From a virus: 21,543 nucleotides of DNA. Below the pieces are notes generated by a model. It worked only from the letters and a program-made list of their open reading frames with translations, had not been told where the DNA came from and did not search any database. Below, piece after piece: positions 2,331 through 20,229 of the stretch (its first letter is position 1; each line of letters opens with the position of its first letter). A program made the translations under genes and the position numbers. The stretch spans positions 1 to 21,543 of IMG/VR virus record IMGVR_UViG_3300031684_000014. The stretch is one strand, 5' to 3'.

Positions 2331-3089
2331 ATGTATAATGAACATGTCCCCCTTATTGCACAGCAAGCGAAGTCTATTGAAGGCTTCCTTGCTGTGTGTA
2401 GGTTTACAATGCATTCAATTCGACGCCCTTTTAACAGAATTGATGTAGATAACAAAATTACCTCAACAACAGAAGAAGGTTGGTCACATCTTGTTGACAA
2501 CGTTGATAAGTACTTTGAAGCTGCAACAAGCGAAGAGTTTTGTCTCACTGATAGGTTTTACCACTTGCTGGATATAAAGGGTCTGAATCTTACAAAAGTT
2601 GGTTTTGTTCTGCAAATGTGTGGGCACCCCATAGGTTGCATTGATACACATCACATACAGGACTTTAACAAAAAGCACAAGTTTGAACTACCTAGTTCCC
2701 GTCCCTACAAAAGTATTAGGTGGGAGACAATATCAAAGTTATCAGACAGGGTTTTGAAAGCAAATAAAAAGCCAAATTACGATAATTCCCCCTACCCTAA
2801 TTACGAATACAACGTTTGGCGTAATCGCGATCTTGTAACTAGATATATCGGTCTATGTTATCACGAGCCAATGAAGAATCCAGAACACATGTGGAACTCT
2901 TGGTGTGATAAGATTGCTATTAAATACAATAAAGACTACAAAGATGGATACCAAGTATCCGCACATCATCTCTCTCACATTATAGGATTCCGAAAGGAAA
3001 TTGAAAATGGAAAGTTTGGAACCTCACTACTCTGGTCAAACAAATCAAATGATCAAGACAAATTCGAAGCTGCGTTGTGTGCTGTCTGA
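2331..3089 (+). CDS. Conserved phage protein of unknown function, HhH-like segment suspected
   Basis: A 252-residue soluble protein starting 15 bases after the reductase stop, with AAGGAAAAT upstream, so probably co-transcribed. The middle (about residues 85-115) reads as a helix, a turn with VLQMCGHPIGCIDTHHI, then another helix. I associate that pattern with a protein found in several marine phages, and it could be a helix-hairpin-helix-like nucleic-acid-binding element, but this rests on memory of the pattern rather than a search. The rest is rich in aromatic and charged residues (YNVWRNRDLVTRYIGLCYHE), with several cysteines and histidines not arranged as an obvious zinc site. The 3' end overlaps the next gene by about 80 bases. 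Function unknown. Confidence 0.75.
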   Translation: MYNEHVPLIAQQAKSIEGFLAVCRFTMHSIRRPFNRIDVDNKITSTTEEGWSHLVDNVDKYFEAATSEEFCLTDRFYHLLDIKGLNLTKVGFVLQMCGHPIGCIDTHHIQDFNKKHKFELPSSRPYKSIRWETISKLSDRVLKANKKPNYDNSPYPNYEYNVWRNRDLVTRYIGLCYHEPMKNPEHMWNSWCDKIAIKYNKDYKDGYQVSAHHLSHIIGFRKEIENGKFGTSLLWSNKSNDQDKFEAALCAV

Positions 3090-3273
3090 AACTCAATTCT
3101 ACGAGAAAGGGGCGTTGTATGACGTGTACAACGTAAAGCATGAACACGGTGAGAAAAATGCTCGTAGGTTCGTACAAGGATCTGACGGTATCTACGACGA
3201 TGTGGCTATGACTGTATCTAAATTCAAAGAGGAAAAGAATGGAAAACGAAACAAAGGGGCCTGCGACAAGTAA
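3007..3273 (+). CDS. Hypothetical protein overlapping both neighbours
   Basis: An 88-residue basic protein. I chose ATG 3007 because AAAGGAA at 2994-3000 is well spaced from it; TTG 3001 and ATG 3049 are the alternatives. It overlaps the previous gene by 83 bases and the next by 35, an unusually deep double overlap, so the true start could be the later ATG. The C-terminal half has FVQGSDGIYDDVAMTVSKFKEE and ends in a lysine-rich tail. Bases 3154-3194 inside it are the reverse complement (40 of 41) of 15421-15461, so it is a possible antisense target. No domain recognised. Confidence 0.5.
   Translation: MESLEPHYSGQTNQMIKTNSKLRCVLSETQFYEKGALYDVYNVKHEHGEKNARRFVQGSDGIYDDVAMTVSKFKEEKNGKRNKGACDK
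3154..3194 (+). repeat. Distant inverted repeat, left arm (41 bp, 40/41 to 15421-15461)
   Basis: The reverse complement of this segment matches 15421-15461 at 40 of 41 positions, and the match stops abruptly at both ends. Here it lies within a coding sequence and encodes KNARRFVQGSDGIY in the frame of the 3007 gene. The other arm lies at the 3' end of a membrane-protein gene beside the structured, gene-free region. Confidence 0.9.
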
Positions 3274-9522: not shown

Positions 9523-9924
9523 ATGACTAATCTCTACAAACGTGCTGCAAAAGAAAACTGGCGCTTCAACTCCACTAAGGGCCAGATGACCGTTGAGGAT
9601 CTGTTCAAGTTGGCTCTGACTTCTCAAACAGGTGCTGCTTGCCTTAATAAGGTGGCAATTGATCTTTCTCGTCAGATTCGTGAAACGGGAGAAGAGACCT
9701 TCGTTGATACTGGGTCTAACCCCCAGTTGACTCGTTGGAAAGATCAGCTTGAGCTTGTTAAAGACGTAATTGCTGATAAGCAAGACGAAAACGCTGCTCG
9801 TCAAGATGCCCGCGCTAAAGCTGAAAAGCGTCAGAAGCTTCTTGAGATCCTTGATAAGAAACAAGAAAACAAACTGGAAGGTCTTTCCGAAGATGAAATC
9901 CGAAAGCAACTTGCCGAACTTTGA
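9523..9924 (+). CDS. Conserved phage protein with C-terminal coiled coil
   Basis: A 133-residue protein, taking ATG 9523 because AAAGGA (9508-9513) is spaced nine bases from it; TTG 9502 would overlap the previous gene and has no better site. The N-terminus (LYKRAAKENWRFNSTKGQ) and a globular segment to about residue 75 are followed by a highly charged helical region (residues 78-133, QDARAKAEKRQKLLEILDKKQENKLEGLSEDEIRKQL) likely to form a coiled coil. It follows the YfaP-like gene by 13 bases, so co-expression is likely. I recall similar proteins in other large phages, without a known function. Confidence 0.75.
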   Translation: MTNLYKRAAKENWRFNSTKGQMTVEDLFKLALTSQTGAACLNKVAIDLSRQIRETGEETFVDTGSNPQLTRWKDQLELVKDVIADKQDENAARQDARAKAEKRQKLLEILDKKQENKLEGLSEDEIRKQLAEL

Positions 9925-10138
9925 TCTTCTTAGTCTGATGAATAGGAGCGCTAGAAACTCTGATGCGTATCTTAGTTTACATGCGCTTGGCGCTGCTAGA
10001 CATTACAACACTATGTTTAACTCCTACAAACAGGAACTGATTTCACGCGGGGTAAAACTCGCGTGGGATCAAAAAGGTTTTGCAACTATAGTAAGCAAGG
10101 AAAAAAAACAATGCACTGGTGTGATAAAGCCGAACTAG
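9893..10138 (+). CDS. Small hypothetical protein overlapping upstream gene
   Basis: An 81-residue protein from ATG 9893 (AAGG at 9878-9881, slightly long spacing); ATG 9938 is the alternative. It overlaps the previous coding end by 32 bases and the next gene by 28. The sequence is mixed, with SLHALGAARHYNTMFNSYKQELISRG forming an evident amphipathic helix and a lysine-rich tail. The protein end lies in an A-rich segment used as ribosome site by the following gene. No domain recognised. Confidence 0.5.
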   Translation: MKSESNLPNFDLLSLMNRSARNSDAYLSLHALGAARHYNTMFNSYKQELISRGVKLAWDQKGFATIVSKEKKQCTGVIKPN

Positions 10139-10269
10139 AACTTGAACAAGAGCTTGAGGATGGCCTTATAACTCAGGAAGAGTTTAATGAGTATATAAGA
10201 GACCTCAAGCAAGAACTCAGAGAAGCAAGAGAAGAGGCTGCAGAAGCTGCATTTGACAACTACTACTGA
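10111..10269 (+). CDS. Small acidic helical phage protein
   Basis: A 52-residue protein starting at ATG 10111 with AAGGA (10099-10103 region) about ten bases before it. It is almost entirely a charged helix (ELEQELEDGLITQEEFNEYIRDLKQELREAREEA) ending in AFDNYY. Similar short 'LEEGxITxEEYxxxLRDLxxEL' proteins are widespread in phages, with unknown roles. The start codon lies inside the preceding gene. Confidence 0.65.
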   Translation: MHWCDKAELELEQELEDGLITQEEFNEYIRDLKQELREAREEAAEAAFDNYY

Positions 10270-10283
10270 CTATACTGTATACT
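10253..10283 (+). promoter_or_regulatory. Possible sigma70 promoter
   Basis: TTGACA at 10253-10258 and TATACT at 10278-10283 are near-consensus boxes, but the 19-base spacer is long. The -35 box lies in the end of the previous gene, and a 39-base gap before the next start gives room for a leader. Confidence 0.3.
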
Positions 10284-10308
10284 AAATCAACAGAAGGAAG
10301 CCATAACA

Positions 10309-10503
10309 ATGGTGAAAAAGACAGAAGAGTATTACATTTGTGATAGGTGTAATATTAAAATGGAGAGACCTATGGTAGGGTGCGATCTGGCAGGTTGGGT
10401 GGCTTTAAATTGGACAGATCTTTGTTGTTCCTGTAACTTTCACCTTGAAAACCTAGTCAAGGACGAGCAGAAAAAACAACGAAAAACAAGGGCAAAACTA
10501 TGA
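10309..10503 (+). CDS. Small zinc-ribbon-like protein
   Basis: A 64-residue protein with two CxxC-type pairs, CDRC (residues 11-14) and CCSC (39-42 region), about 25 residues apart, the arrangement of a treble-clef or ribbon zinc site. A basic tail (KKQRKTRAKL) follows. AGAAGGA lies about ten bases upstream of ATG 10309, and the TGA overlaps the next ATG (ATGA). Zinc binding is inferred from the spacing; nucleic-acid or protein contacts are both possible. Confidence 0.65.
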   Translation: MVKKTEEYYICDRCNIKMERPMVGCDLAGWVALNWTDLCCSCNFHLENLVKDEQKKQRKTRAKL

Positions 10504-10643
10504 AGATTGATCTAGATAGGATTAAGCCGGTGGGTGGTAGCCGACTCACCAAAGAAGAATGTCTTAGGCGCATCAAAGAATGCCAAGAGGCTAACATGAT
10601 CCATGCTGTCGAAGCGTTAAAAGAAGAAATGAAAGGTTACTAA
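10500..10643 (+). CDS. Small hypothetical protein (47 residues)
   Basis: Begins at ATG 10500 in an ATGA overlap with the zinc-ribbon-like gene and ends at TAA 10641-10643. The product is 47 residues, starting MKIDLDRIKPVGGSRLTKEE, then a charged helix with two cysteines about six residues apart. Coupled translation and the three-base gap to the next gene support it. No function recognised. Confidence 0.6.
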   Translation: MKIDLDRIKPVGGSRLTKEECLRRIKECQEANMIHAVEALKEEMKGY

Positions 10644-10646
10644 CTT

Positions 10647-11045
10647 ATGGCTTATATGAATTATAACTGGGATCTTGTGAGCAACCTATGCTTTGTTTTT
10701 GGTTCTAACCTCGCTGGTTATCACAGTGCAGGGGCGGCTTACTACGCACATCAAGGCCTTGGAGCAGCTTGGGGTGTAGGGACTGGCCGTACTGGCCGGT
10801 GCTATGCTATCCCTACTAAAGACGGGAGTATGCAGACTTTGTCTCTCGATAAAATTGAGAACTTTGTCTATAGGTTTATCAAGTATGCTGAGGCTCGCCC
10901 CGGTCTCTTGTTTGTTATCACACCAATTGGTTGTGGTCTGGCTGGCCATAATCGAGAGGACATCATGCAGCTTATCATAGATCAAGGAGGTCCTCTCCCT
11001 AACATGGTCTTCACAGCAAGCTGGGTGGATCTGGACGTAATCTAA
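10647..11045 (+). CDS. A1S_2505-family phage non-structural protein
   Basis: A 132-residue protein with the family's signature blocks. FVFGSNLAGYHSAGAAYYA lies at about 17-35, GRCYAIPTKDGSMQTLSL at about 50-67, and FVITPIGCGLAGHNREDI at about 89-106. The glycine-rich loops (GSN.AG.H..GAA and GCGLAG) recall nucleotide or ADP-ribose pockets of macro-like folds. The biochemical activity is unknown to me. The start ATG 10647 follows AAAGG of the previous gene's end by about nine bases. Confidence 0.8.
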   Translation: MAYMNYNWDLVSNLCFVFGSNLAGYHSAGAAYYAHQGLGAAWGVGTGRTGRCYAIPTKDGSMQTLSLDKIENFVYRFIKYAEARPGLLFVITPIGCGLAGHNREDIMQLIIDQGGPLPNMVFTASWVDLDVI

Positions 11046-11069
11046 ACACATAGGATAAGGAGAAAATCA

Positions 11070-11312
11070 ATGGCTGGTGGAAAATCTGGAATTGGTAAAG
11101 CAAAGGCACGTCAGAGCAGCCACAAGAGTGCTCTTGGAATTAACGCTAGGCAGAAAGCCGGGCTTCCGGCTAAGTCTGGTCGTCGTCGATCGCCTAACAT
11201 TCGTTCTGAAGTTGATCGGCATGGTAAGCGGAATTGGGTTACTGCAACCCCCAATGAAGTCCATGCTAACAACAAGAAGAATCACCAGAAGTCCCAAAGC
11301 GTGGCTGTGTAA
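11070..11312 (+). CDS. Small highly basic protein
   Basis: An 80-residue protein rich in Lys, Arg, Ser, Asn and Gly (KSGRRRSPNIRSEVDRHGKR), with few hydrophobics, likely disordered and nucleic-acid binding. AAGGAG is spaced eight bases before ATG 11070. Its stop overlaps the next start (TAATG). A second, unrelated small basic protein is at 14011. No family recognised. Confidence 0.65.
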   Translation: MAGGKSGIGKAKARQSSHKSALGINARQKAGLPAKSGRRRSPNIRSEVDRHGKRNWVTATPNEVHANNKKNHQKSQSVAV

Positions 11313-11488
11313 TGGTGTATGAGGATCTTGGTCCATTTAAGACAAAGGAGGACGCCCTTGTGGCGTCTTCTAACTACCTGAGAAAGTATCCTGCGCAAGG
11401 CTACGATACTATAACCCGCAAACCATATATGTCTCCGAGAGATAACAAGTGGTATGCGATAGTTTCGAGAGGAAACAACTGTGATTGA
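11312..11488 (+). CDS. Small hypothetical protein (58 residues)
   Basis: Starts at ATG 11312 in a TAATG overlap with the basic-protein gene and ends at TGA 11486-11488, overlapping the next GTG start. The 58 residues begin MVYEDLGPFKTKEDALVASS, then a basic strand-rich segment (DTITRKPYM, KWYAIVSRG). The layout, a helix then beta strands, resembles small phage accessory proteins. No function recognised. Confidence 0.6.
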   Translation: MVYEDLGPFKTKEDALVASSNYLRKYPAQGYDTITRKPYMSPRDNKWYAIVSRGNNCD

Positions 11489-11672
11489 ATCTTACAAACC
11501 TAACAAAAAATCTTGGCTATTTGTTAAAGGCTATGAAGAAATTTTTGAGAAAAGGAGACAAAACTACGTGGCCAAACCGCCCGGCCTTATCAATACAAAG
11601 TACCGGTCTATCAAATACAATTTCTGCCCTAGGGTGGATTACAGTAAGGTGAAAAACTATGACAATTGCTAA
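11481..11672 (+). CDS. Small basic hypothetical protein, GTG start
   Basis: A 63-residue basic protein beginning at GTG 11481, supported by AGAGGA at 11468-11473 seven bases before it. It overlaps the previous gene by eight bases and the next by 14. Tyr/Lys/Asn-rich with short helices (KGYEEIFEKRRQNYV). No motif recognised. Confidence 0.55.
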   Translation: MIESYKPNKKSWLFVKGYEEIFEKRRQNYVAKPPGLINTKYRSIKYNFCPRVDYSKVKNYDNC

Positions 11673-12018
11673 AATAACTGATAAGGAATTTAATCAATGG
11701 ATGGCCGCACTCCGCAGTGGTAAGTACCAGCAAATACAAGGGACACTTATGGGTGTTTCAGAGTTTGGTAAGACAGGTTATTGCTGCCTTGGTGTACTTA
11801 ATGATTTGTTTCATCTCGGCCCTATGGAAGTTGAGAGTCTTAATAAAAGTGGTTTTACTTTTGAAGGACACGAGATAACCTATGACCACATAATGAAATT
11901 CACCCAAGACTCAAAAATATCAAGAATTGCTACAGAAATGAATGACAAAGGTAAATCCTTTAGTGAGATTGCAAATGCTCTAGAAGAATACTATTATAGC
12001 AAAGGAAAACCTAAATGA
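11659..12018 (+). CDS. Conserved phage protein with YCCLGVL motif
   Basis: A 119-residue protein with a pattern common in phages: W-x-x-ALRSGKYQQ near the N-terminus (residues 14-24), GYCCLGVLNDLF at about 40-51, and a C-terminal helix MNDKGKSFSEIANALEEYY. The family is conserved but lacks a defined activity to my knowledge. ATG 11659 has AAGGTG seven bases before it. Its stop overlaps the start of the duplicated gene beginning at 12015, exactly where base composition starts to rise, so it is the last native-looking gene left of the GC-rich island. Confidence 0.7.
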   Translation: MTIAKITDKEFNQWMAALRSGKYQQIQGTLMGVSEFGKTGYCCLGVLNDLFHLGPMEVESLNKSGFTFEGHEITYDHIMKFTQDSKISRIATEMNDKGKSFSEIANALEEYYYSKGKPK

Positions 12019-12050
12019 AAAACCTAACACAAGCAGATGTCGCCCGCCTT
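12015..12050 (+). repeat. 36-bp direct repeat, copy 1 (gene start duplicated from 12601)
   Basis: This segment matches 12601-12636 at 35 of 36 positions and encodes MKNLTQADVARL, the start of the downstream gene. After it the sequences diverge completely. Each copy has an AAAGGA ribosome site just upstream, so both starts could be translated. Confidence 0.9.
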
Positions 12051-12312
12051 GAATGCGCGCTGGAAGTCGTCCGATCTGATCGGGCTGTTGCCCGTGTTGG
12101 TGCAGCCGTCACACGTTGGCAAAACGCTTGGCGTGTTCCCGGCGGTCGAAACCAAAAAGCCCGGCTGGCGTCTGACGCCCGGCGACAAACGCGGCCTGCG
12201 CCTGGCCGCTTTCCTGCAATCCGTTCGGGGCTTCGGCGGTGTCGGTGGGTTTTGTTGCACAGCCGACGATTTTGCAAAATTACTGCTTGACTCGTGCGGT
12301 ATTAACGGGTAA
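12037..12312 (+). pseudogene. 5'-truncated VRR-NUC nuclease fragment
   Basis: The frame from ATG 12037 encodes 91 residues that from residue 8 onward match the C-terminal two thirds of phage VRR-NUC nucleases. WKSSDLIGLLPV is followed by HVGKTLGVFPAVETKKPGW (the E-x-K of the active site), then DKR and a closing GGVGGFCCTADDFAKLL. The N-terminal part expected before WKSSDLIG is absent. In its place is the duplicated start of the 12601 gene in another frame, whose translation (12015-12290) is nonsense after about 12 residues. No ribosome site precedes ATG 12037. I read it as a decayed fragment; a short expressed product cannot be excluded. Confidence 0.7.
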
Positions 12313-12359
12313 TAGTGGTGCAAGGAAACGGGCAGACGCCCACAACTGGAGAGACCAAG

Positions 12360-12545
12360 ATGAGCATGCAGATTTTGAAATACAGCGTTTACGCAAACGG
12401 CATCTTCTGGGGTGAGTTTGAAGGCACGAGCGAGCAAGATGCAATGGAAGTTGCAGCCACACTTCACGGCACGCCATACATTGACGATGACGGCGACGAG
12501 TGCCCCGACACCACCGGCATGACCGCCGTTGAAATTGACGCATGA
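12360..12545 (+). CDS. Small acidic hypothetical protein
   Basis: A 61-residue protein from ATG 12360, chosen because GGAGAG lies about eight bases upstream; an in-frame GTG at 12315 is the alternative. It contains a strand-rich N-terminus (ILKYSVYANGIFWGEFEG), a helix (SEQDAMEVAATLHG) and an acidic end (DDDGDECPDTTG). GC-rich codon use contrasts with the genes left of 12015. A GC-rich hairpin follows. No family recognised. Confidence 0.6.
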   Translation: MSMQILKYSVYANGIFWGEFEGTSEQDAMEVAATLHGTPYIDDDGDECPDTTGMTAVEIDA

Positions 12546-12552
12546 CCCCCAC

Positions 12553-12571
12553 CCCCGGCCACGCGCCGGGG
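12553..12571 (+). terminator. GC-rich hairpin between island genes
   Basis: CCCCGGC (12553-12559) pairs perfectly with GCCGGGG (12565-12571) around CACGC. No T-run follows, so termination is uncertain. Confidence 0.35.
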
Positions 12572-12600
12572 ACCACACATCAACCAAAGGAACCAACCAA

Positions 12601-12636
12601 ATGAAAAACCTAACACAAGCAGATGTCGTCCGCCTT
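12601..12636 (+). repeat. 36-bp direct repeat, copy 2
   Basis: Partner of 12015-12050 (35/36). Here it is the intact start of a full-length gene, so this copy is probably the parental one. Confidence 0.9.
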
Positions 12637-12981
12637 TTTGAGGATGCAGGTCTGACGATAGACATTCGCGGATCGCTCCGAGTTACCCACAAAACAGGCA
12701 CATTCCTTTACGATACTGAGGACGAGGACGACCGCGGCGTTTATATCGCAATGCACCAAGACACCATTGACGCCGATGAAAAATACCGTGCAGAAGAAGA
12801 GAAGCGCGCAGCGGAGGAAGCCAAACTGAAGGCCGCGTTCTTGGAAACGGATGAAGGAAAGGAGTGGGCGGAGAAAAACGCATTCCCTACCATTGACGTT
12901 TCTAGCGGGTCTGAGACGTATTTTACGGGCATATTTGTTAACTGTGCCGACCTTAGCGGCGGCAAGCCTTGGCTGAAATAA
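12601..12981 (+). CDS. Hypothetical protein with duplicated 5' end
   Basis: A 126-residue protein from ATG 12601 (AAAGGA ten bases before). An N-terminal domain (LTQADVVRLFEDAGLTIDIRGSLRV) looks like a helix and strands. A very charged helix (residues about 58-95, EEEKRAAEEAKLKAAFLETDEGKEWAEK) may form a coiled coil, and the C-terminus ends KPWLK. The first 36 bases occur again at 12015 in front of the VRR-NUC fragment. The body is GC-richer than most of the window. Function unknown. Confidence 0.65.
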   Translation: MKNLTQADVVRLFEDAGLTIDIRGSLRVTHKTGTFLYDTEDEDDRGVYIAMHQDTIDADEKYRAEEEKRAAEEAKLKAAFLETDEGKEWAEKNAFPTIDVSSGSETYFTGIFVNCADLSGGKPWLK

Positions 12982-13014
12982 CTAAGTCCATTTAAATAAC
13001 AACGGAGAGAGACC

Positions 13015-13092
13015 ATGTCCGACTTCGCCACGCGCCTGTTCCTGATTATGGACCGCCAGCGCGACGATCAACACAAGGAGACAGACAGATGA
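13015..13092 (+). CDS. 25-residue ORF coupled to the hexapeptide-repeat gene
   Basis: ATG 13015 follows GGAGAGAGACC, the same kind of ribosome site seen before 12360 and 17410. The reading frame gives 25 residues beginning MSDFATRLFLIMDRQRDDQ and ends in an ATGA overlap with the next gene. It could be a tiny protein or a leader that couples translation. The strong site and the overlap support translation; function is unknown. Confidence 0.45.
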   Translation: MSDFATRLFLIMDRQRDDQHKETDR

Positions 13093-13760
13093 AAGAGCAA
13101 ACTCACAATTTCGGAGACGGCAACGGCCCCGTTCCTGCGCACAGGCATATTAAAGGCAACGGGTGGGTGGCTGATACGGCTAACGTACATAATAGCGCGT
13201 ACATTGGAGAAGATGCGCTGGTCTACGGCAATGCGCTGGTCTACGGCAATGCGCTGGTCTCCGGCGATGCGCTGGTACACGACAATGCGCTGGTCTACGG
13301 CAATGCGCGGGTCTACGGCGATGCGTGGGTCTCCGGCAGTGCGCGGGTCTACGGCAATGTGCTTGTCTACGGCGATGCGCGGGTCTCCGGCAATGCGCGG
13401 GTCCGCGGCGATGCGCTGGTCTACGGCAATGCGCTGGTCTCCGGCGATGCGCGGGTCCGCGGCGATGCGTGGGTCTCCGGCAGTGCGCGGGTCTACGGCA
13501 ATGCGCTTGTCTACGGCGATGCGCGGGTCTCCGGCAATGCGCTGGTCAAGCGCGGGGTGTACACGTCTACGCCTACAAGCATAACCCGATCAGATGGGTA
13601 CATGTTCACCTTGCAATCGGACGGATCGATTGTCGCTGGGTGCCGCGACTTTACGCCTGACGAGGCGAAAGCCCATTGGGGCCACCCTAAGCACCACAAA
13701 CATCGTGAAAGCATGGCAATTGTCACCGCTCTGAATGCAATCGCTGCCGAGCGACAGTAA
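13089..13760 (+). CDS. Hexapeptide-repeat beta-helix protein
   Basis: A 223-residue protein. Residues 42-155 are 19 successive six-residue units of the type [N/D]-A-[L/R/W]-V-[Y/S/R]-G, the signature of beta-helical hexapeptide proteins; three units make one coil. A short N-terminal segment precedes them. The C-terminal domain (about 156-223) has TRSDGYMFTL, GCRDFTPDEAKAHW and a histidine-rich GHPKHHKH. This repeat-plus-'GCRxFT' architecture recurs in phage and prophage proteins without a firm function. Possible roles are a trimeric structural or surface protein. The gene is coupled to the 25-residue ORF upstream (ATGA). Its DNA is a near-perfect 18-bp tandem repeat with a recent-looking internal duplication. 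Confidence 0.8.
   Translation: MKEQTHNFGDGNGPVPAHRHIKGNGWVADTANVHNSAYIGEDALVYGNALVYGNALVSGDALVHDNALVYGNARVYGDAWVSGSARVYGNVLVYGDARVSGNARVRGDALVYGNALVSGDARVRGDAWVSGSARVYGNALVYGDARVSGNALVKRGVYTSTPTSITRSDGYMFTLQSDGSIVAGCRDFTPDEAKAHWGHPKHHKHRESMAIVTALNAIAAERQ
13212..13553 (+). repeat. 18-bp tandem repeat array (18 full units plus one divergent)
   Basis: Units follow the pattern RATGCGCKGGTCTACGGC with scattered changes, in frame with the hexapeptide protein. Units 7-10 (13320-13391) and 15-18 (13464-13535) are identical except for one base, revealing a 144-bp higher-order period of eight units. Confidence 0.95.
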
Positions 13761-13805
13761 ACTCAACGGGGCCAAGCGCCCCCATTACCACAGGAAGAAA
13801 GAGAA

Positions 13806-14081
13806 ATGAACATCACCGAGACGGCCAAGCTGTACGCCGCCCAAATAAGCCCTGAGATTGACGCGCATGCTGCCCGCGCCTGTTCCTCTTCCCGCAGCGG
13901 GTTGGCTGATGCTGGTGGGGCTAGGCGCGCTTTTGATAAAAGGAAAATCCTATACAACATGAAAGCGTCTGAGATCAGACTTATAGACAAACTAGAAGAA
14001 GGACTACACAATGGAAACAGTACCAGTTATGAACAAAACCGGTGTACGTACGCTCAAGACAGCGGCTTCAGGCGGCAATAA
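13806..14081 (+). CDS. Chimeric ORF spanning the right edge of the GC-rich island
   Basis: ATG 13806 has a purine-rich AGGAAGAAAGAG site and opens a 91-residue frame. The first 25 residues (MNITETAKLYAAQISPEIDA...) have GC-rich codons like the island. After a frame-incompatible stretch (13867-13935) the last 40 residues have AT-rich phage codons and begin with an internal ATG at 13959. The native gene may therefore be 13959-14081 (40 residues, starting MKASEIRLIDKLEEGLHNGN), with AAAGGA at 13939-13944. The long form is probably an accidental read-through of two joined pieces. Neither part is recognised. Confidence 0.4.
   Translation: MNITETAKLYAAQISPEIDAHAARACSSSRSGLADAGGARRAFDKRKILYNMKASEIRLIDKLEEGLHNGNSTSYEQNRCTYAQDSGFRRQ
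13849..13962 (+). pseudogene. Orphan VPLPA-CTERM sorting-signal fragment
   Basis: In the frame of ATG 13867, bases to the stop at 13960-13962 encode 31 residues containing PVPLPAAGWLMLVGLGALLIKGK. This is the VPLPA-CTERM pattern: a VPLPA motif, a hydrophobic helix and a basic end. Such signals occur at the C-termini of exported Rhodobacteraceae proteins handled by exosortase-type enzymes. The frame is open only from 13849 because of a stop at 13846-13848, so the exported body of the protein is missing. The stop overlaps ATG 13959 of the next phage frame. It is probably the broken 3' end of a host gene captured by the phage, though a translated membrane peptide is possible. Confidence 0.6.
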
Positions 14082-14199
14082 CACCCTTCCCTATCAGAAG
14101 CTTAAAGGGCCGGTGTCTAAAGGAAAATCTTGGGGTCGATGCACTACAGCAGACGGCTCTAAAGCAACCAAACGAAAACTCGGAAAAAGGTTCACCTAA
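14011..14199 (+). CDS. Small basic hypothetical protein
   Basis: A 62-residue Lys/Gly/Thr-rich protein (GVRTLKTAASGGNN, KGPVSKGKSWGRC, KATKRKLGKRFT) with AGAAGGA about ten bases upstream of ATG 14011. It overlaps the end of the chimeric frame before it, which favours a native pair of overlapping small genes. Likely disordered and possibly nucleic-acid binding. Not recognised. Confidence 0.6.
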   Translation: METVPVMNKTGVRTLKTAASGGNNTLPYQKLKGPVSKGKSWGRCTTADGSKATKRKLGKRFT

Positions 14200-14228
14200 C
14201 AATCGAAAGGAAAAAAAAAAAAAAGGGG

Positions 14229-14405
14229 ATGTTAGAGACCGCGCTATTCCTCTTTGGGGGGATCTTTCTGTTCAACGTAGCAGTAAGATTTGTTCGAGAA
14301 TCTCAAAGAATAAAGGAGAGACAGGAAGAAACAACAGAAAAGGCTGATGCTCTCAAAGATTCTTGCTCTGATAGCGTAACGAAAGAACTTAAAGGAGACA
14401 AATAA
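14229..14405 (+). CDS. Small single-pass membrane protein
   Basis: A 58-residue protein from ATG 14229. Residues 3-20 (ETALFLFGGIFLFNVAVR) are a hydrophobic helix, followed by a charged, helical tail (ESQRIKERQEETTEKADALKD). The upstream AAAGG (14206-14210) is separated from the start by a run of 14 A and GGGG, an odd ribosome-site layout. The stop overlaps the next start (TAATG). A holin-accessory or inner-membrane role is conceivable but unproven. Confidence 0.6.
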   Translation: MLETALFLFGGIFLFNVAVRFVRESQRIKERQEETTEKADALKDSCSDSVTKELKGDK

Positions 14406-14530
14406 TGGACTTTTTTGTCACGATAATAGCTATTATCGTCATCATCGCTTTTTTTAAAGGGGGCGGCGGTGGACCCTCTGGACCCGGAGGAGGTGCTAGT
14501 CGTGTTACCCCAAATAAACCAGCTCTTTGA
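14405..14530 (+). CDS. Tiny membrane protein with glycine-rich tail
   Basis: A 41-residue protein from ATG 14405, coupled by TAATG to the previous membrane gene and preceded by AAAGGAG. Residues 2-17 (DFFVTIIAIIVIIAFF) are a membrane helix, then a Gly/Pro-rich segment (KGGGGGPSGPGGGAS). Similar hydrophobic-plus-glycine mini-proteins are common in phage genomes. The glycine codons double as the ribosome site of the next gene. Confidence 0.6.
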   Translation: MDFFVTIIAIIVIIAFFKGGGGGPSGPGGGASRVTPNKPAL

Positions 14531-14696
14531 AGAATGGTACTGGGATGAGTTCCACGGATCTCATTTCAGGCCAGATGACTCAGTAAGAGAGACTATAGAG
14601 TCCTCACCGACCTATAGTATCATAAGAAGAGCCTTCTTTGCAGGCTATGAAAAAGCTCAACACCAAACCAGTAAGGACGCTAAAAATGGAAAATAA
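14502..14696 (+). CDS. Small hypothetical protein, GTG start
   Basis: I chose GTG 14502 (64 residues) because GGAGGAGGTG at 14486-14495 is an almost perfect Shine-Dalgarno site six bases before it. An in-frame GTG at 14469 (75 residues) is possible. The product has FEEWYWDEFHGSHFRPDDSV and IIRRAFFAGYEKAQ, the latter resembling the 'AFxAGxxA' helix of many small phage proteins. It lies inside the previous gene for 29 bases and overlaps the next start by 11. Function unknown. Confidence 0.6.
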   Translation: MLPQINQLFEEWYWDEFHGSHFRPDDSVRETIESSPTYSIIRRAFFAGYEKAQHQTSKDAKNGK

Positions 14697-15246
14697 CCAG
14701 CGCACTCATACCAATCCAGATGATGATCTCTACTTTGCGGAAAAGATCTACTGGGATGAAGAAGACGAACTTGAAGCTGAAACTAAGGATAAGAAGAATT
14801 CTAAAATGAACAAACCGCAAAATGCCACCCCCTACCAATACCGATACCAATACAAATGCACTTGTAAGCCTGATAGTATTGTTCTCGGTGAAGATATGAT
14901 TGTTGATGTACCTGAGGAGGAATATCAAGACTTTTTCGTCATTGATGGCAACAGCCCAATCTTCATGAGCATGAACCCTGAAGAAGCTGAACTTGAAGCA
15001 GACGAATATGGGGCAGAAGAAGCTGAACTTGAAGAGGAGAAAAAACTTAGGACTATCCTTGACAGGGAGCGTAATGCTGCACTTGAAGAAGCTGCTCTGT
15101 CTGTAGATCGTCATGTTGAGTTCGCTTTCCATAACATTCTGAATGCCCCTACTACAGAAATTCGGATACAATGGTCTGTCATTATGACTTATATGGCGAG
15201 GGAGGCAGAAGTCATCCGCAACATGAAAACCGGTCTCTCCTACTAA
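14686..15246 (+). CDS. Acidic hypothetical phage protein
   Basis: A 186-residue protein from ATG 14686, chosen for AAGGA (14673-14677) eight bases upstream. It is strongly acidic. A first third (DDDLYFAEKIYWDEEDELEAETKD) looks disordered. A strand region (YQYRYQYKCTCKPDSIVLGEDMIVDVP) follows, then a Glu-rich coiled-coil-like helix (NPEEAELEADEYGAEEAELEEEKKL). The helical end (RIQWSVIMTYMAREAEVIRNM) closes it. ATG 14807 could serve as an internal start. Acidic phage proteins sometimes mimic DNA, but nothing specific supports that here. Confidence 0.65.
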   Translation: MENNQRTHTNPDDDLYFAEKIYWDEEDELEAETKDKKNSKMNKPQNATPYQYRYQYKCTCKPDSIVLGEDMIVDVPEEEYQDFFVIDGNSPIFMSMNPEEAELEADEYGAEEAELEEEKKLRTILDRERNAALEEAALSVDRHVEFAFHNILNAPTTEIRIQWSVIMTYMAREAEVIRNMKTGLSY

Positions 15247-15263
15247 GAAAAGGAAAATAAGCT

Positions 15264-15476
15264 ATGCTTACTGCTATCTTCTATCTGGCAATTGTCTTAG
15301 CAGGTACCTATTTGGTTTTAACGGGGAACAAGCTCTTCGAAGGATACGAGAAGGATAGTAAAAGAGTCATCTATTTTGTCCTAACTGTTGTGTTTATCGT
15401 TCTATCTGTCTCTATTGTCTTAGATACCGTCAGATCCTTGTACGATCCTACGAGCATTTTTTTGAGGAGCAGATAA
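15264..15476 (+). CDS. Two-pass small membrane protein with a C-terminal segment from an inverted repeat
   Basis: A 70-residue protein, AAAGGAAA about ten bases before ATG 15264. Two hydrophobic helices (about 2-19, LTAIFYLAIVLAGTYLVL, and 35-53, VIYFVLTVVFIVLSVSIVL) flank a charged loop (GYEKDSKR). Size and topology would fit a holin or an inner-membrane accessory protein; no family is recognised. The last residues (from TVRSLYDPTS) are encoded by a 41-bp segment that is the reverse complement of 3154-3194, so the natural C-terminus may have been replaced. It is the last gene before the gene-free control region. Confidence 0.6.
   Translation: MLTAIFYLAIVLAGTYLVLTGNKLFEGYEKDSKRVIYFVLTVVFIVLSVSIVLDTVRSLYDPTSIFLRSR
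15421..15461 (+). repeat. Distant inverted repeat, right arm (41 bp, 40/41 to 3154-3194)
   Basis: Forty of 41 bases match the reverse complement of 3154-3194; the single mismatch is near the middle and the match ends sharply on both sides. Any rightward transcript through here carries a sequence complementary to the mRNA of the 3007 gene. Confidence 0.9.
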
Positions 15477-15675
15477 GGCTCTTCAATGAGGAACAAGAGG
15501 CTAGCATTAGTATGTGGCCCTCTTACTGAAGTTACCGATCAACTATGGTAAAGTGCCTCAAAGGAGACCGTAGAGACATGGGTTCACTCTTCTAGTAGGG
15601 TGGGTATCCAGAGCTTAGAGGAGTCACCAGAGGGGTACACTCTGGAGCTCTCTGGTATGAAGAGACCTTACTCAT

Positions 15676-15716
15676 GAACCCCCATCCTGTCCCTTAATTG
15701 GGATGGGGTGGGGGTC
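15676..15716 (+). promoter_or_regulatory. Hairpin that competes with the terminator (possible antiterminator)
   Basis: Bases 15676-15693 pair over 17 bp, three of them wobble (two G-U and one U-G) and with one bulged A, with 15700-15716 around TTAATT. This uses 15710-15715, the left arm of the terminator hairpin that follows, so the two folds exclude each other. Confidence 0.5.
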
Positions 15717-15737
15717 ATACCCCCTTTTTTTTTTTTT
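15710..15737 (+). terminator. Strong intrinsic terminator
   Basis: GGGGGT (15710-15715), loop CAT, ACCCCC (15719-15724), then 13 consecutive T (15725-15737). This is a canonical rho-independent terminator closing the rightward transcript from the small-gene cluster, ten bases before the first tandem promoter. Confidence 0.85.
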
Positions 15738-15819
15738 CTTATCTTTTTTGACAAAAGTCATAGTTTAAGGTAGATAAACAATTGAAAGTAAAGAGAAAAA
15801 ATAGGTGACGTTAAAGAAG
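15737..15819 (+). repeat. Promoter-leader direct repeat, copy 1
   Basis: These 83 bases are identical to 15844-15926 (offset 107) and are diverged but clearly present at about 16113-16195. The unit spans the -35 box, -10 box and about 40 bases of A-rich leader ending GGTGACGTTAAAGAAG. Such identity in non-coding DNA implies recent duplication or selection on the whole leader. Confidence 0.9.
15748..15776 (+). promoter_or_regulatory. Tandem promoter P1 (sigma70 type)
   Basis: Perfect -35 TTGACA (15748-15753), 17-base spacer, -10 TAGATA (15771-15776). Start is expected near 15783. A strong terminator lies directly upstream. Confidence 0.8.
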
Positions 15820-15837
15820 AGGGTAAAAAGAAACCCT

Positions 15838-15856
15838 AAAGGATCTTATCTTTTTT
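15838..15856 (+). terminator. Weak terminator-like hairpin at the end of unit 1
   Basis: AAAGGAT (15838-15844) pairs with ATCTTTT (15848-15854) around CTT, and T continues to 15856. The T-run runs into the P2 -35 box. The stem is A/T-rich, so efficiency may be low. Confidence 0.35.
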
Positions 15857-15926
15857 GACAAAAGTCATAGTTTAAGGTAGATAAACAATTGAAAGTAAAG
15901 AGAAAAAATAGGTGACGTTAAAGAAG
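15844..15926 (+). repeat. Promoter-leader direct repeat, copy 2
   Basis: Identical over 83 bases to 15737-15819. After 15926 the units differ: copy 1 continues with an AGGGT/ACCCT hairpin, copy 2 with GGGG/CCCC and CCCCT/AGGGG hairpins. Confidence 0.9.
15855..15883 (+). promoter_or_regulatory. Tandem promoter P2 (sigma70 type)
   Basis: TTGACA (15855-15860), 17-base spacer, TAGATA (15878-15883), same as P1. Predicted start near 15890; the transcript would run to the terminator at 16080-16125, about 235 nt. Confidence 0.8.
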
Positions 15927-15951
15927 GGGGAAAACCCCTAAATAGGGGTCC

Positions 15952-16075
15952 TAACTAGGGGCCTTACTGACGAGATCGGAGTCAGTGGAGGCTAAGAAGA
16001 GACCCTAAAGGGTCTTCCCTTGAATCGAAAGCATTGTTGTTTGTTGATTATTTGTTAATAAATACTTTAACAGAG
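15952..16075 (+). repeat. 124-bp structured repeat B, copy 1
   Basis: Matches 16224-16347 with only a handful of differences. It contains two conserved hairpins, ACTGAC/GTCAGT (15966-15971/15981-15986) and AGACCC-TAAA-GGGTCT (16000-16015), then a T/G-rich segment and AATAAATA (16057-16064). No coding frame is shared. Confidence 0.85.
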
Positions 16076-16079
16076 ACTT

Positions 16080-16125
16080 AAGGTAGGATCCTAACTAGGG
16101 ATCCTAAGAGGATCTTACCTTTTTT
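16080..16125 (+). terminator. Intrinsic terminator ending unit 2, abutting P3
   Basis: AAGGTAGGATCC (16080-16091) pairs over 12 bp (one G-U) with GGATCTTACCTT (16110-16121), followed by T to 16125. An alternative GGATCC/GGATCC stem lies within. The T-run forms the upstream part of the P3 -35 region. Confidence 0.65.
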
Positions 16126-16153
16126 AACAAAACTTACAGTTTTATAGTAGATA
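16124..16153 (+). promoter_or_regulatory. Tandem promoter P3 (degenerate sigma70 type)
   Basis: TTAACA (16124-16129), 18-base spacer, TAGATA (16148-16153). Weaker than P1/P2 by one -35 base and spacing. It is the promoter nearest the 16382 gene, giving a leader of about 220 bases. Confidence 0.65.
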
Positions 16154-16223
16154 AACAATTGAAAGTAAAGAAATAAAATAGGTGACGTTAAAGAAGAGGG
16201 TAAAAAGAAACCCTAAAGGATTC

Positions 16224-16347
16224 TAACTAGGAACCTTACTGACGAGATCGGAGTCAGTAGATGCTAAGAAGAGACCCTAAAGGGTCTTCCCTTGAATCGA
16301 AAGGACTGTTGTTTGTTGATTATTTGTTAATAAATAATTTAACAGAG
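16224..16347 (+). repeat. 124-bp structured repeat B, copy 2
   Basis: Partner of 15952-16075. Both hairpins are preserved (ACTGAC/GTCAGT at 16238-16243/16253-16258; AGACCC/GGGTCT within 16272-16287), as is AATAAATA (16329-16336). Here it forms the 5' leader of the 16382 gene. Confidence 0.85.
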
Positions 16348-16381
16348 CCTTAGACCTCAAATCTAAAGAGAGGATCCTAGG

Positions 16382-16675: not shown

Positions 16676-17196
16676 CCAAATATGAATATAAATATAAATA
16701 TAATGCTACATTGAAAACTTGGTTTATAAGACTGGTATTTTTGATTTTTGGTGTTGCTGCAACTAGTGCTTTCTACAGCTCTTATAACTACTACAACTTT
16801 CCCTACAGGATAAGTGAGCCTTATTCGAAGGTAAGGCTAGATAACCCTCATGTGGAAGAAAAGAGTTTCATTGTTGATGTGTCTTTTATCAAGAGGGCTT
16901 GTTCTTTTCTTTCTCTAGAGATCTATCACTCGGTTAGAGGAGAGACTAGTGAGTTAGATTGGCAAGCCAATGAAAACGAGGGTAATAGACCACCCGGACC
17001 ACAGGAGTTTAGGCTATATGTCATCAGTGGTGGAGAGGATACCTTTTCATTAAAGAAAGGCACTCTAACTGCTGTAACAGACCATCTTTGCTATGATGAA
17101 CGCATTAGAAACTTTGTTGTGAAGTCTACAACCTTCTTTAGCATATCTCTCGATGATTACTCTAAAGAGGTCGGTCCTTTTTATTTACCTGAATAA
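16672..17196 (+). CDS. Membrane-anchored protein with exported domain
   Basis: A 174-residue protein from ATG 16672 (ATGA overlap; AGGAGGA about a dozen bases upstream). A Tyr/Lys-repeat start (KYEYKYKYN) precedes one membrane helix (about 17-36, WFIRLVFLIFGVAATSAFYS). The rest, about 135 residues, is beta-rich (FIVDVSFIKRACSFLSLEIY, EFRLYVISGG) with three cysteines and probably lies in the periplasm. The signal-anchor is not followed by a clear lipobox or cleavage site. Pairing with the coiled-coil membrane gene suggests an envelope-acting complex; no family recognised. Confidence 0.65.
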   Translation: MTKYEYKYKYNATLKTWFIRLVFLIFGVAATSAFYSSYNYYNFPYRISEPYSKVRLDNPHVEEKSFIVDVSFIKRACSFLSLEIYHSVRGETSELDWQANENEGNRPPGPQEFRLYVISGGEDTFSLKKGTLTAVTDHLCYDERIRNFVVKSTTFFSISLDDYSKEVGPFYLPE

Positions 17197-17227
17197 AGGG
17201 TCTTTTAGTAATCTCCCGATGAAGGTA

Positions 17228-17257
17228 TTGATAATTTTATCTGGTCTTTATTTTAAT
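17228..17257 (+). promoter_or_regulatory. Candidate promoter before the packaging operon
   Basis: TTGATA (17228-17233), 18-base spacer, TTTAAT (17252-17257), each 5 of 6 to consensus. The -35 overlaps an inverted repeat GATAA-TT-TTATC (17230-17241) that could be an operator. The 17197-17409 gap otherwise holds A/T-rich sequence, with one TTTATT/AATAAA palindrome at 17316-17331. Confidence 0.4.
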
Positions 17258-17409
17258 AGAATCTTTAAAAAAGATCTAATGAAATCATGTAGTTAAGGGA
17301 ACTTAAGATGGGTTTTTTATTGTTTAATAAACTTAATAGCTATTTAGTACCCTGTCTTCATTCCCTATTTTCCTATAGTAAACATACAGATAAATGATAA
17401 GGAGAGACC

Positions 17410-18171
17410 ATGTCTGATAATAAAGATGACAAACCTAAGCGTCCTCGTGGTCGACCTCGCAAAGATGGTCTTCCGCCGGGGAGTCCTAAGCCAAAAAAGA
17501 ACCATGTTTCAGAAAAAGACAAGATGAGCCACGTAGGGTGTGAAGGGAGAGAGAATCCTCCTTTATTCAGTGGGGAAGAAGGTACTGAAAACGAAACTAG
17601 ATGGAATACAGAGCAGGCTGCTCGTGCAGCTATGGAAGATAAGATCAATGCCGTAGATAACGGTGATTGGGACTTTGAAAACAATCGTAGATTCAATAAA
17701 GGCGGTAGACCTAAAGGCTCTAAGAATGTGAAGATCGATCCCTCTAATGCTGCTGGTAAGCTAGAAGAGCTTAACTTCGATCCTATGGTTGAGATGATCA
17801 AACTCTATAAGCAGATTAACAGAGATCTTTCTGCTGTGAGAGTTAAGAAGACTGATAAAGCTCGTAACGCTCCTACAGACGACCCTGATAGGTATGAGTA
17901 TACAGTTCCTCGTGGATCACACCAGTATAACGGTATGCTACAGATCAAACAGACCATCATTAAGGATCTCCAGCGGTATGGTTATCGTATGGTACCTGAT
18001 AAGCAAGAGTTGGACATCAATGAAAAGGCTCCAACTATTATTAAACTTGATCTCGGTGAAAAAGACAACAATGACTCGGATTCAGATTCAGATTCAGATT
18101 CAGATGGAAGATTCTCTGAGGATGAGACCTCTAAGAAAGAAACGACTATTAACGCTAGCTACGAGTTCTGA
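17410..18171 (+). CDS. AT-hook DNA-binding protein, putative small terminase subunit
   Basis: A 253-residue protein. Two AT-hook-like motifs are present: RPRGRPRK (11-18) and GGRPKGSKN (98-106). The central part (about 110-200) is helical, and an acidic DS repeat occupies 222-232 (five DS pairs plus D). Position three genes before the large terminase and the DNA-binding motifs make it the best candidate for the small terminase subunit, which recognises phage DNA and loads the motor. I see no classic TerS helix-turn-helix, so this is inference. The start has GGAGAGACC about two bases before ATG. Confidence 0.6.
   Translation: MSDNKDDKPKRPRGRPRKDGLPPGSPKPKKNHVSEKDKMSHVGCEGRENPPLFSGEEGTENETRWNTEQAARAAMEDKINAVDNGDWDFENNRRFNKGGRPKGSKNVKIDPSNAAGKLEELNFDPMVEMIKLYKQINRDLSAVRVKKTDKARNAPTDDPDRYEYTVPRGSHQYNGMLQIKQTIIKDLQRYGYRMVPDKQELDINEKAPTIIKLDLGEKDNNDSDSDSDSDSDGRFSEDETSKKETTINASYEF
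18079..18105 (+). repeat. GATTCA hexanucleotide microsatellite
   Basis: Four perfect GATTCA units plus GAT encode alternating Asp-Ser in the putative small terminase. Slippage would add or remove DS pairs without a frameshift. Confidence 0.85.
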
Positions 18172-18313
18172 TTCTGAACCTAAGGTCCATAAGAGGTTCT
18201 ATAGTTCATGGGAGTTCTGTCAGCTTATGCGAGAAGACCTAGTTAGATGGCACCTTCATGTAGGTTTTGCTTCTCTAACAGATACAGGAAGGAAAGTATT
18301 AGATGAGTTTTGA
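18122..18313 (+). CDS. Small hypothetical protein overlapping the putative TerS end
   Basis: A 63-residue frame from ATG 18122, overlapping the end of the preceding gene by 50 bases and the next start by 11. The portion beyond 18171, where no other gene runs, has natural-looking protein sequence (SSWEFCQLMREDLVRWHLHVGFASLTDTGRKVL), ending like a small winged-helix protein. GGAAG lies about ten bases upstream. ATG 18227 would give only 28 residues. Without this gene there would be a 130-base gap in a compact operon, which supports it modestly. Confidence 0.45.
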   Translation: MRPLRKKRLLTLATSSDSEPKVHKRFYSSWEFCQLMREDLVRWHLHVGFASLTDTGRKVLDEF

Positions 18314-18533
18314 AACTATATACAGAGTGTTCTATCGATCACCCGCTGATGACTATAATACAGTTAAACAACTCGGTATCTATGAGAGTCAAGCAGCAGC
18401 TAAAAAAGCTATTTCCATGACCCGTAAAAGTAGAAAAGCACATGGTCGTAGTTGGGAAGTTAGGGCGTATGGAATAAACCTTGAGTACGATGTAGTGTAT
18501 GAAAACAACGAAAGGGACTATTATGGAGCTTAA
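18303..18533 (+). CDS. Small hypothetical protein
   Basis: A 76-residue basic protein with AAGGAAAG about seven bases before ATG 18303. It has a strand (TIYRVFYRSP), a helix (SQAAAKKAISMTRKSRKAHG) and strands (WEVRAYGINLEYDVVYE), like small alpha/beta phage proteins. It overlaps the next gene by 11 bases. Located between putative TerS and TerL; role unknown. Confidence 0.65.
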   Translation: MSFETIYRVFYRSPADDYNTVKQLGIYESQAAAKKAISMTRKSRKAHGRSWEVRAYGINLEYDVVYENNERDYYGA

Positions 18534-18885
18534 AAGTGTGAAAACCATCGATCTTATAGCCGAATTGATTATGCGTAGGGACCCAACAGGCTCTATTGGT
18601 GGGTCTGTGTTCTTTGAGTTCTTCCCTTGGAAAGAGGCATTAGAGAGTCCTGTTGTTATTACTGTAGAAAAGAACCATCATAATAAGCTCTTATCTCATT
18701 ACAGCGCTATGGCTACTTCTGATTCTGAAACCTCTGTTCATGAATACGAGTATAGGAGACCTAAAGTGTATAGTGAGTTTAAAAAAGTAGGGAAACAAAG
18801 AGTACACAAAAACGAGTTCGTAGAGACAGACAATAGACAAGACAGTCTTTGGGACTACTGGTCTTCAGAACCGGTTGTAGGATAA
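18523..18885 (+). CDS. Hypothetical protein preceding large terminase
   Basis: A 120-residue protein, with ATG 18523 chosen for AAAGGG seven bases upstream. Opens with a helix (SVKTIDLIAELIMRRD), then GSVFFEFFPWKEALESPVVITVEK, and a long polar, probably flexible C-terminal part ending in WDYWSSEPVVG. No motif recognised. The six-base gap to TerL suggests coupled expression; an accessory packaging role is possible by position alone. Confidence 0.65.
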   Translation: MELKSVKTIDLIAELIMRRDPTGSIGGSVFFEFFPWKEALESPVVITVEKNHHNKLLSHYSAMATSDSETSVHEYEYRRPKVYSEFKKVGKQRVHKNEFVETDNRQDSLWDYWSSEPVVG

Positions 18886-18891
18886 TAGAGC

Positions 18892-20229
18892 ATGCCAAGT
18901 ATTAAACTACACCCCGGTCAAAGTAGAGTGTTTAAAGATGTTATGGTTGATGGAAAATACCGTTATGGTGTGGTTTGCGCTGCCCGAGGTTGGGGTAAGT
19001 CTTATTTCGCTGGCACTACGGCGCTACAGGCAGTTCAAGAACTAGTTAACATGCCAGCCGATGTTCCTAACAAGAACGTTGCTATTATTGCTCCTACCTA
19101 TCAGCAGGTGGTGGATATTTACTATCCGCTGCTTGCTTGGCAGCTCGGTCTAGAGGACTTTGCTGTTAAACATAGTAGATCTGCTGGTCAGTTTTGGCTC
19201 CCTAACAACGTTATGCTTAAGCTCTGGTCTTACGAGGCTTCAGAGCGTATGCGTGGTACAGGACAATACCTTGTTATTCTTGATGAGGTCTGTTCTTGGA
19301 AGGGTGCAGGTACTAACCTAAAGGAAAGCTGGGAGTCGGTAATCGAGCCTTGTGTTACTACTCGTTGGTCCCCTATGATGCAAAAGAAGTGGAATAGTCC
19401 TTTTCCCGGTCGTGCTATTGTCATTAGTACACCAAGGGGTCATGACTATTTCTATGAGATGTTCAATAGGAAAGAGAATGACAACGCTTGGGGTTCTTAC
19501 CACTTTAACTATAGACAATCACCCTACTTAGATCCTGATGAGATTCAACGAGCTAAGATGACTCTAGACCCTCTTAAGTTTGCAAGAGAGTATGAAGCAT
19601 CATTTAAAGACTCTGGTAACAATCTGTTTTATATGTTTAATCGTAATGATCACGTAGACTCTGCTCTACCTGACATCCAGAAAGGAGAAGATGTTCATGT
19701 TGCAATGGACTTCAACATCGGTATTATGGCTTCAGCTATCGGCGCTCGCCGTGGTAATCAGACGCATTGGCTGCACGAACTTAGTGGCCATCCTGATACT
19801 GATTCGGTCGCTAAGTCCCTCGTAAGTAAATACGTAAAGAATGGGCATAAGGTAATCGTCTATCCGGATCCTACAGGTAAGAGTCGTAAGACCTCTGCCT
19901 CTGGGGAGACCGACTTCAGTATTCTTCGTAAGGCTGGTCTAACCGTAAGGGTTAGAGAGGCATCTCCAGCTATCATAGATAGTACTAACGCAGTTAACGC
20001 TCAGCTTAAGAACGCTAACGGGAATGTTAATATGTACTTTCACCCTCGTATGCTTAACACTGTTCGTTCTATGGAGCGCACGTCTTGGCTAGAGAATAAC
20101 CCAGATACAGCACAAATCAATAAGACCGAGGGGGTCGAACACTGGTCTGATGCTATTAGGTACTATACAGAGTATAACTACCCTATTCGTAGCGGTAGTG
20201 TAGGCGTTGTTAAGACTTCTACTTTCTAG
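18892..20229 (+). CDS. terL: Terminase large subunit (packaging ATPase and nuclease)
   Basis: A 445-residue DNA-packaging motor that pumps and cuts genome DNA at the prohead portal. ATPase domain: Walker A ARGWGKS (31-37), a Q-rich adenine region near HPGQSR (7-12), Walker B YLVILDE (126-132) with catalytic E132, and coupling motif STPRG (179-183). The nuclease (RNase H-like) domain has D273 in AMDFNIG, D326 in YPDPTGK and D420 in SDAIRYY, the acidic triad expected for metal binding. Length fits the family. AGGATAATAGAG precedes ATG 18892. Small-gene order with an AT-hook protein upstream supports a packaging module. Confidence 0.92.
   Translation: MPSIKLHPGQSRVFKDVMVDGKYRYGVVCAARGWGKSYFAGTTALQAVQELVNMPADVPNKNVAIIAPTYQQVVDIYYPLLAWQLGLEDFAVKHSRSAGQFWLPNNVMLKLWSYEASERMRGTGQYLVILDEVCSWKGAGTNLKESWESVIEPCVTTRWSPMMQKKWNSPFPGRAIVISTPRGHDYFYEMFNRKENDNAWGSYHFNYRQSPYLDPDEIQRAKMTLDPLKFAREYEASFKDSGNNLFYMFNRNDHVDSALPDIQKGEDVHVAMDFNIGIMASAIGARRGNQTHWLHELSGHPDTDSVAKSLVSKYVKNGHKVIVYPDPTGKSRKTSASGETDFSILRKAGLTVRVREASPAIIDSTNAVNAQLKNANGNVNMYFHPRMLNTVRSMERTSWLENNPDTAQINKTEGVEHWSDAIRYYTEYNYPIRSGSVGVVKTSTF

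Follow-up and report, generated by a model that had tools for sequence, protein, structure and literature searches.

Why should the end of a small membrane-protein gene in a phage carry, in reverse, a piece of another gene 12 kb away? The question is raised by a 21.5-kb phage contig (the window), in which an earlier note had pointed out a 41-nt segment complementary to the middle of a distant gene and had offered two readings of it: a trans-acting antisense regulator or the scar of an illegitimate recombination. The elements at issue are these:

3007 to 3273, + strand: the donor gene (3007 gene), 88 aa, function unassigned, conserved in Noahvirus DSS3_PM1 and DSS3_VP1 by tblastn matches and alignment
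3154 to 3201, + strand: arm A, the source of the copy, spanning codons 50-65 of the 3007 gene (KNARRFVQGSDGIYDD)
15264 to 15476, + strand: two-helix membrane ORF, 70 aa
15414 to 15461, + strand: arm B, inverted copy of arm A

A repeat-finding tool applied to the window pairs the two arms as a 48-nt inverted repeat with 94% complementarity. Base-by-base comparison bears out the 41-nt match, with 40 of 41 reverse-complement matches in the core (3154-3194 against 15421-15461), and extends it to 45 of 48 over the full arms, leaving three mismatches. The edges had also been called sharp, which holds less well for the left edge of the copy, where weaker similarity continues to 15414. The match is far above chance: the longest exact inverted stretch runs to 25 nt, while in 20 versions of the window shuffled by dinucleotide the longest runs to 13-17 nt, and Blast of a composite genome (three overlapping contigs, circularly joined, about 75 kb) gives the arm pair an E-value of about 4e-13. 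The arms are the sole long-range inverted pair in the composite, where the remaining dispersed repeats are all direct.

One or both arms are found in eight database contigs. IMGVR_UViG_3300031704_000002 (G004, 61 kb) contains both, and arm B is carried by G001, G002, G004, G005, and the window, five contigs that are identical across the locus and whose flanks differ only at 14224, 15737, and 16386. Contigs G003, G006, G007, and G008 have arm A only, and since all four terminate before the B region, they say nothing about the absence of B. A short match in a metagenome-derived contig could conceivably be an artefact of assembly or a chance similarity. I reject both as scarcely credible, chance because of the shuffles and the E-value, assembly error because both arms lie together in G004 and arm B recurs in four database contigs besides the window, the five having identical structure and different dataset numbers.

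The same contigs bear on the idea that the two arms are maintained as an inverted repeat through which recombination flips the intervening 12-kb segment. Forty-one inverted nucleotides at 98% identity could recombine in principle, but all the copies recovered show one or other of the two normal sets of flanks, none of the contigs contains an inverted junction, and a flip would break the transcription of both genes. In view of the lack of flipped junctions I rejected such a switch, which must be considered very improbable.

If the match is real, which arm came first? The nearest isolates are DSS3_PM1 and DSS3_VP1, 70-75-kb phages of the Naomviridae (Noahvirus), in the second of which deoxyuridine is reported to replace thymidine (PMC12697855). 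Homologs of the 3007 gene in the two isolates align with it at 47-50% identity, and its product has no Pfam match. Arm A encodes a motif, K50-D65, largely invariant among these sister phages (K50, R54, QGSDGI at 57-62, and D64 are strictly so). The recipient is of a different character. Arm B supplies codons 51-66 of 70 in the membrane ORF, and so does form the C-terminal coding end of that gene, as the earlier note had it, but the ORF has no relatives in phage records or prokaryote genomes and within viral contigs occurs in this phage only. Because the motif of arm A is conserved in the sisters and the ORF that bears arm B is without relatives, arm A is, by the evidence of conservation, the donor and arm B the derived copy. 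A search of bacterial chromosomes with a 23-nt exact pattern from arm A revealed no source there for the 41-mer. There is an A-run at one edge of the copy; with regard to microhomology at the junctions, the edges are decayed and no empty site is available for comparison. Directly 3' of arm B, in another frame (15458-15526), there is an open stretch, FFEEQIRLFNEEQEASISMWPSY, which may be an earlier C-terminus of the membrane ORF, from before the copy shifted the frame; no homolog of the stretch was found.

What follows arm B had been described as a candidate structured RNA. It turns out to consist mostly of a gene fragment and a terminator:

15462 to 15539, + strand: stretch between two fragments, present only in this phage
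15540 to 15659, + strand: degenerate copy, in direct orientation, of an internal stretch of the primase-helicase gene, formerly the candidate structured RNA
15674 to 15737, + strand: strong terminator, a hairpin with a T-run, to which the folding signal is due

The primase-helicase copy matches its source at 84% over 120 nt and at 88% over 107 nt. The source lies just past the Walker A motif of the gene, which is found to the left of the window in longer contigs (reverse strand of G004, 16995-19712 as numbered along that strand). That gene contains an intein with a LAGLIDADG homing-endonuclease domain, and DSS3_PM1 has no such intein. The copy shows 13 changes in 107 nt, most of which alter the protein, and has evidently lost coding constraint. 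No other source was found for the 78 nt that separate it from arm B. Scans with the terminase, the neighboring gene, the helicase piece, and this spacer found no diverged strain that spans the locus, nor was a relative found that spans it without the copy; the two contigs of one diverged strain, 3300028368_000019 and 3300028366_000127, stop on either side of window 13800-16130.

The folding signal is that of the terminator. The region 15480-15720 folds with a z-score of -3.55 if the terminator is included and -1.35 if it is not; the terminator alone gives -4.6 and the helicase-derived piece about 0, no better than shuffled sequence. I therefore rejected a structured RNA at 15480-15720. The clustered changes in the helicase copy can be drawn by eye as new stems, but selection for structure was also rejected, the fold being no more stable than that of the original and equaled by 24% of random mutants. 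Rfam has no family at the gathering threshold for the neighboring region; a match to RT-16 was dismissed as sub-threshold, with no reverse transcriptase found.

That enzyme matters to another reading, in which the arms are the template and variable repeat of a process of the retroelement type, a diversity-generating retroelement for example. All three mismatches, read on the strand of arm A, are adenine in B, as would be expected with B in the role of template. Against this, no reverse transcriptase (PF00078) was found in five contigs that jointly span the genome, by a search whose control was positive; arm A hardly varies from strain to strain; the arms, besides being short, are inverted; and the helicase copy shows no adenine bias. 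Absent the reverse transcriptase, I reject a diversity-generating retroelement, and the chance of any such process is negligible.

The two fragments, one inverted and one direct, both fall within 250 nt at the end of an accessory block (9924-16380, up to the terminase genes) that is almost wholly unrelated to the corresponding block of the sister isolates and has no match in plasmids. At 12000-12636 there is a 586-nt insert of 58% GC, flanked by direct repeats of 38-53 nt that duplicate a gene start (MKNLTQADV). The insert is present in one strain group, and strain G007 has an empty site with a single repeat; the presence of the insert in some strains and not in others indicates that the region is prone to illegitimate rearrangement within the species. 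The block also encodes, at 13089-13760, a beta-solenoid repeat protein of the YdcK type; the 18-nt repeats of which it is built match DNA of Acidovorax phage AP1 at 85-88%, and several contigs end nearby.

The inserted sequences thus match donors elsewhere in the same genome, over 45 of 48 nt in the case of the inverted 3007 copy and over 120 nt in the case of the helicase copy. They are the only gene-fragment copies in the approximately 75 kb of the composite, and no comparable copies were found in the sister genomes. I consider it probable, with some assurance, that arm B is the scar of a templated insertion, by template switch or illegitimate recombination, adopted as a C-terminus. That part of the earlier note which proposed a recombination scar is borne out by the conserved donor, the hypervariable recipient, and the second core-gene fragment 78 nt away. 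The scar is favored because one copying process explains both fragments, while an antisense role explains only one.

The course of events was probably as follows. During replication or recombination in the phage lineage, a short piece of the 3007 gene would have entered the accessory block as an inverted copy, probably through template switching or illegitimate end repair, and at the same spot a piece of the primase-helicase gene would have been inserted as a direct copy. Open in frame by chance, the inverted piece would have become the C-terminal end of the small membrane ORF, and the helicase piece would have decayed in the untranslated stretch ahead of the terminator. I infer that no function was selected beyond the extension of the ORF, and any count of the events is inferred likewise. 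The inverted copy is 94-98% identical to its donor, as compared to 84-88% for the helicase copy, a gap that could reflect different ages or else constraint on arm B, whether as coding sequence or as antisense.

An assessment of the antisense alternative requires the layout of transcription. A motif, [AT]TAGGTGACGTTAAAGAAG, which resembles the SP6 promoter, occurs on the + strand at window coordinates -10388, -821, 15801, 15908, 16178, 26699, and 34557. Three of the sites lie just beyond the locus:

15801 to 15819, + strand: phage-RNA-polymerase-type promoter motif 1 of 3 (ATAGGTGACGTTAAAGAAG), which would open the next transcription unit
15908 to 15926, + strand: phage-type promoter motif 2 of 3
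16178 to 16196, + strand: phage-type promoter motif 3 of 3

DSS3_PM1 has a matching motif, TAGGTTACGTTAAAGAGG, as well as its own RNA polymerase gene, and the recurrent motifs are presumed to be phage promoters. Read in that way, they put arms A and B into a single unit that runs from -821 through the terminator (15674-15737), and so the two apparently are transcribed together, both from the + strand. The stretch from 15737 to 16352 consists of three tandem repeat blocks, each with a phage-type promoter motif, and related copies of these blocks appear in longer contigs at window-relative 34354-34750.

With both arms transcribable from the + strand, RNA from the end of the operon, perhaps after processing to a small RNA derived from the 3'UTR and ending at the terminator, might pair with the middle of the 3007 mRNA and expose it to RNase III. 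The effect might be felt within the phage itself, or it might confer immunity to related phages that superinfect. The pairing that the earlier note envisaged is physically possible (45 of 48 nt, with a predicted duplex energy of about -77 kcal/mol), arm B is just upstream of a strong terminator with a long T-run, and phages are known to make antisense RNAs (CfrI of S-PM2, PMC2984593; STnc6030 of BTP1, PMC12197685). However, no phage-type or sigma-70-like promoter motif immediately precedes B on the + strand; the RNA minus the terminator has no unusual fold (the z-score of -1.35 given above) and no Rfam match above threshold; the fragment adjoining B copies another gene in the sense direction; and the target, codons 50-65, lies in mid-gene, away from the start region. 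These points tell against the trans-acting regulator that had been suggested, and I regard an antisense element as unlikely. Complementarity across relatives offers no variation to compare, all five copies of B being identical. Quite unlikely too is a combination of the two ideas, in which fragments of the phage's own core genes were taken up at the 3' end of an accessory operon and the inverted one has come to silence the 3007 gene as antisense; possibly such a silencer would act in cis at a late stage of infection, or else on relatives that superinfect.

Seen as a probable scar of templated insertion, the locus offers a readable case of a variable region stitched together out of fragments of a phage's own core genes, and one in which a piece from the antisense strand has been able to become the C-terminus of a protein. 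It also offers a caution, that long self-complementarity and a strong folding score beside a terminator can mimic a regulatory RNA. Were the antisense reading true after all, the locus would exemplify a regulator that arose in one step from gene duplication, born of a copying accident.

How does the locus compare with known systems? Like CfrI of cyanophage S-PM2 (PMC2984593), RNA from arm B would be phage-encoded and complementary to a gene of the phage itself, but CfrI has been verified as a transcript of the strand that faces its targets, whereas the complement at this locus would come from a copied fragment far from its target, for which no promoter was found. STnc6030 of prophage BTP1 (PMC12197685) is likewise complementary to a phage gene and could serve as a model for arm B in superinfection exclusion, but it is an experimentally demonstrated RNA with escape mutants, unlike arm B. 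Diversity-generating retroelements share with this locus a second copy of a gene piece, with mismatches on the adenine side, and differ from it in that here there is no reverse transcriptase, the target is invariant, and the copy is inverted and short. The closest likeness of process is to template-switched inverted chimeras, documented with the T7 replisome in vitro (PMC9484634), and to the templated and inverted insertions of yeast (PMC11724301), in both of which short pieces come from elsewhere and are often inverted; the sister phages encode a T7-like DNA polymerase. The T7 and yeast events were observed in vitro or in yeast, while the phage case is deduced from an old natural scar, and unlike them, the scar combines two fragments in opposite orientations, one of which has been retained as coding sequence.
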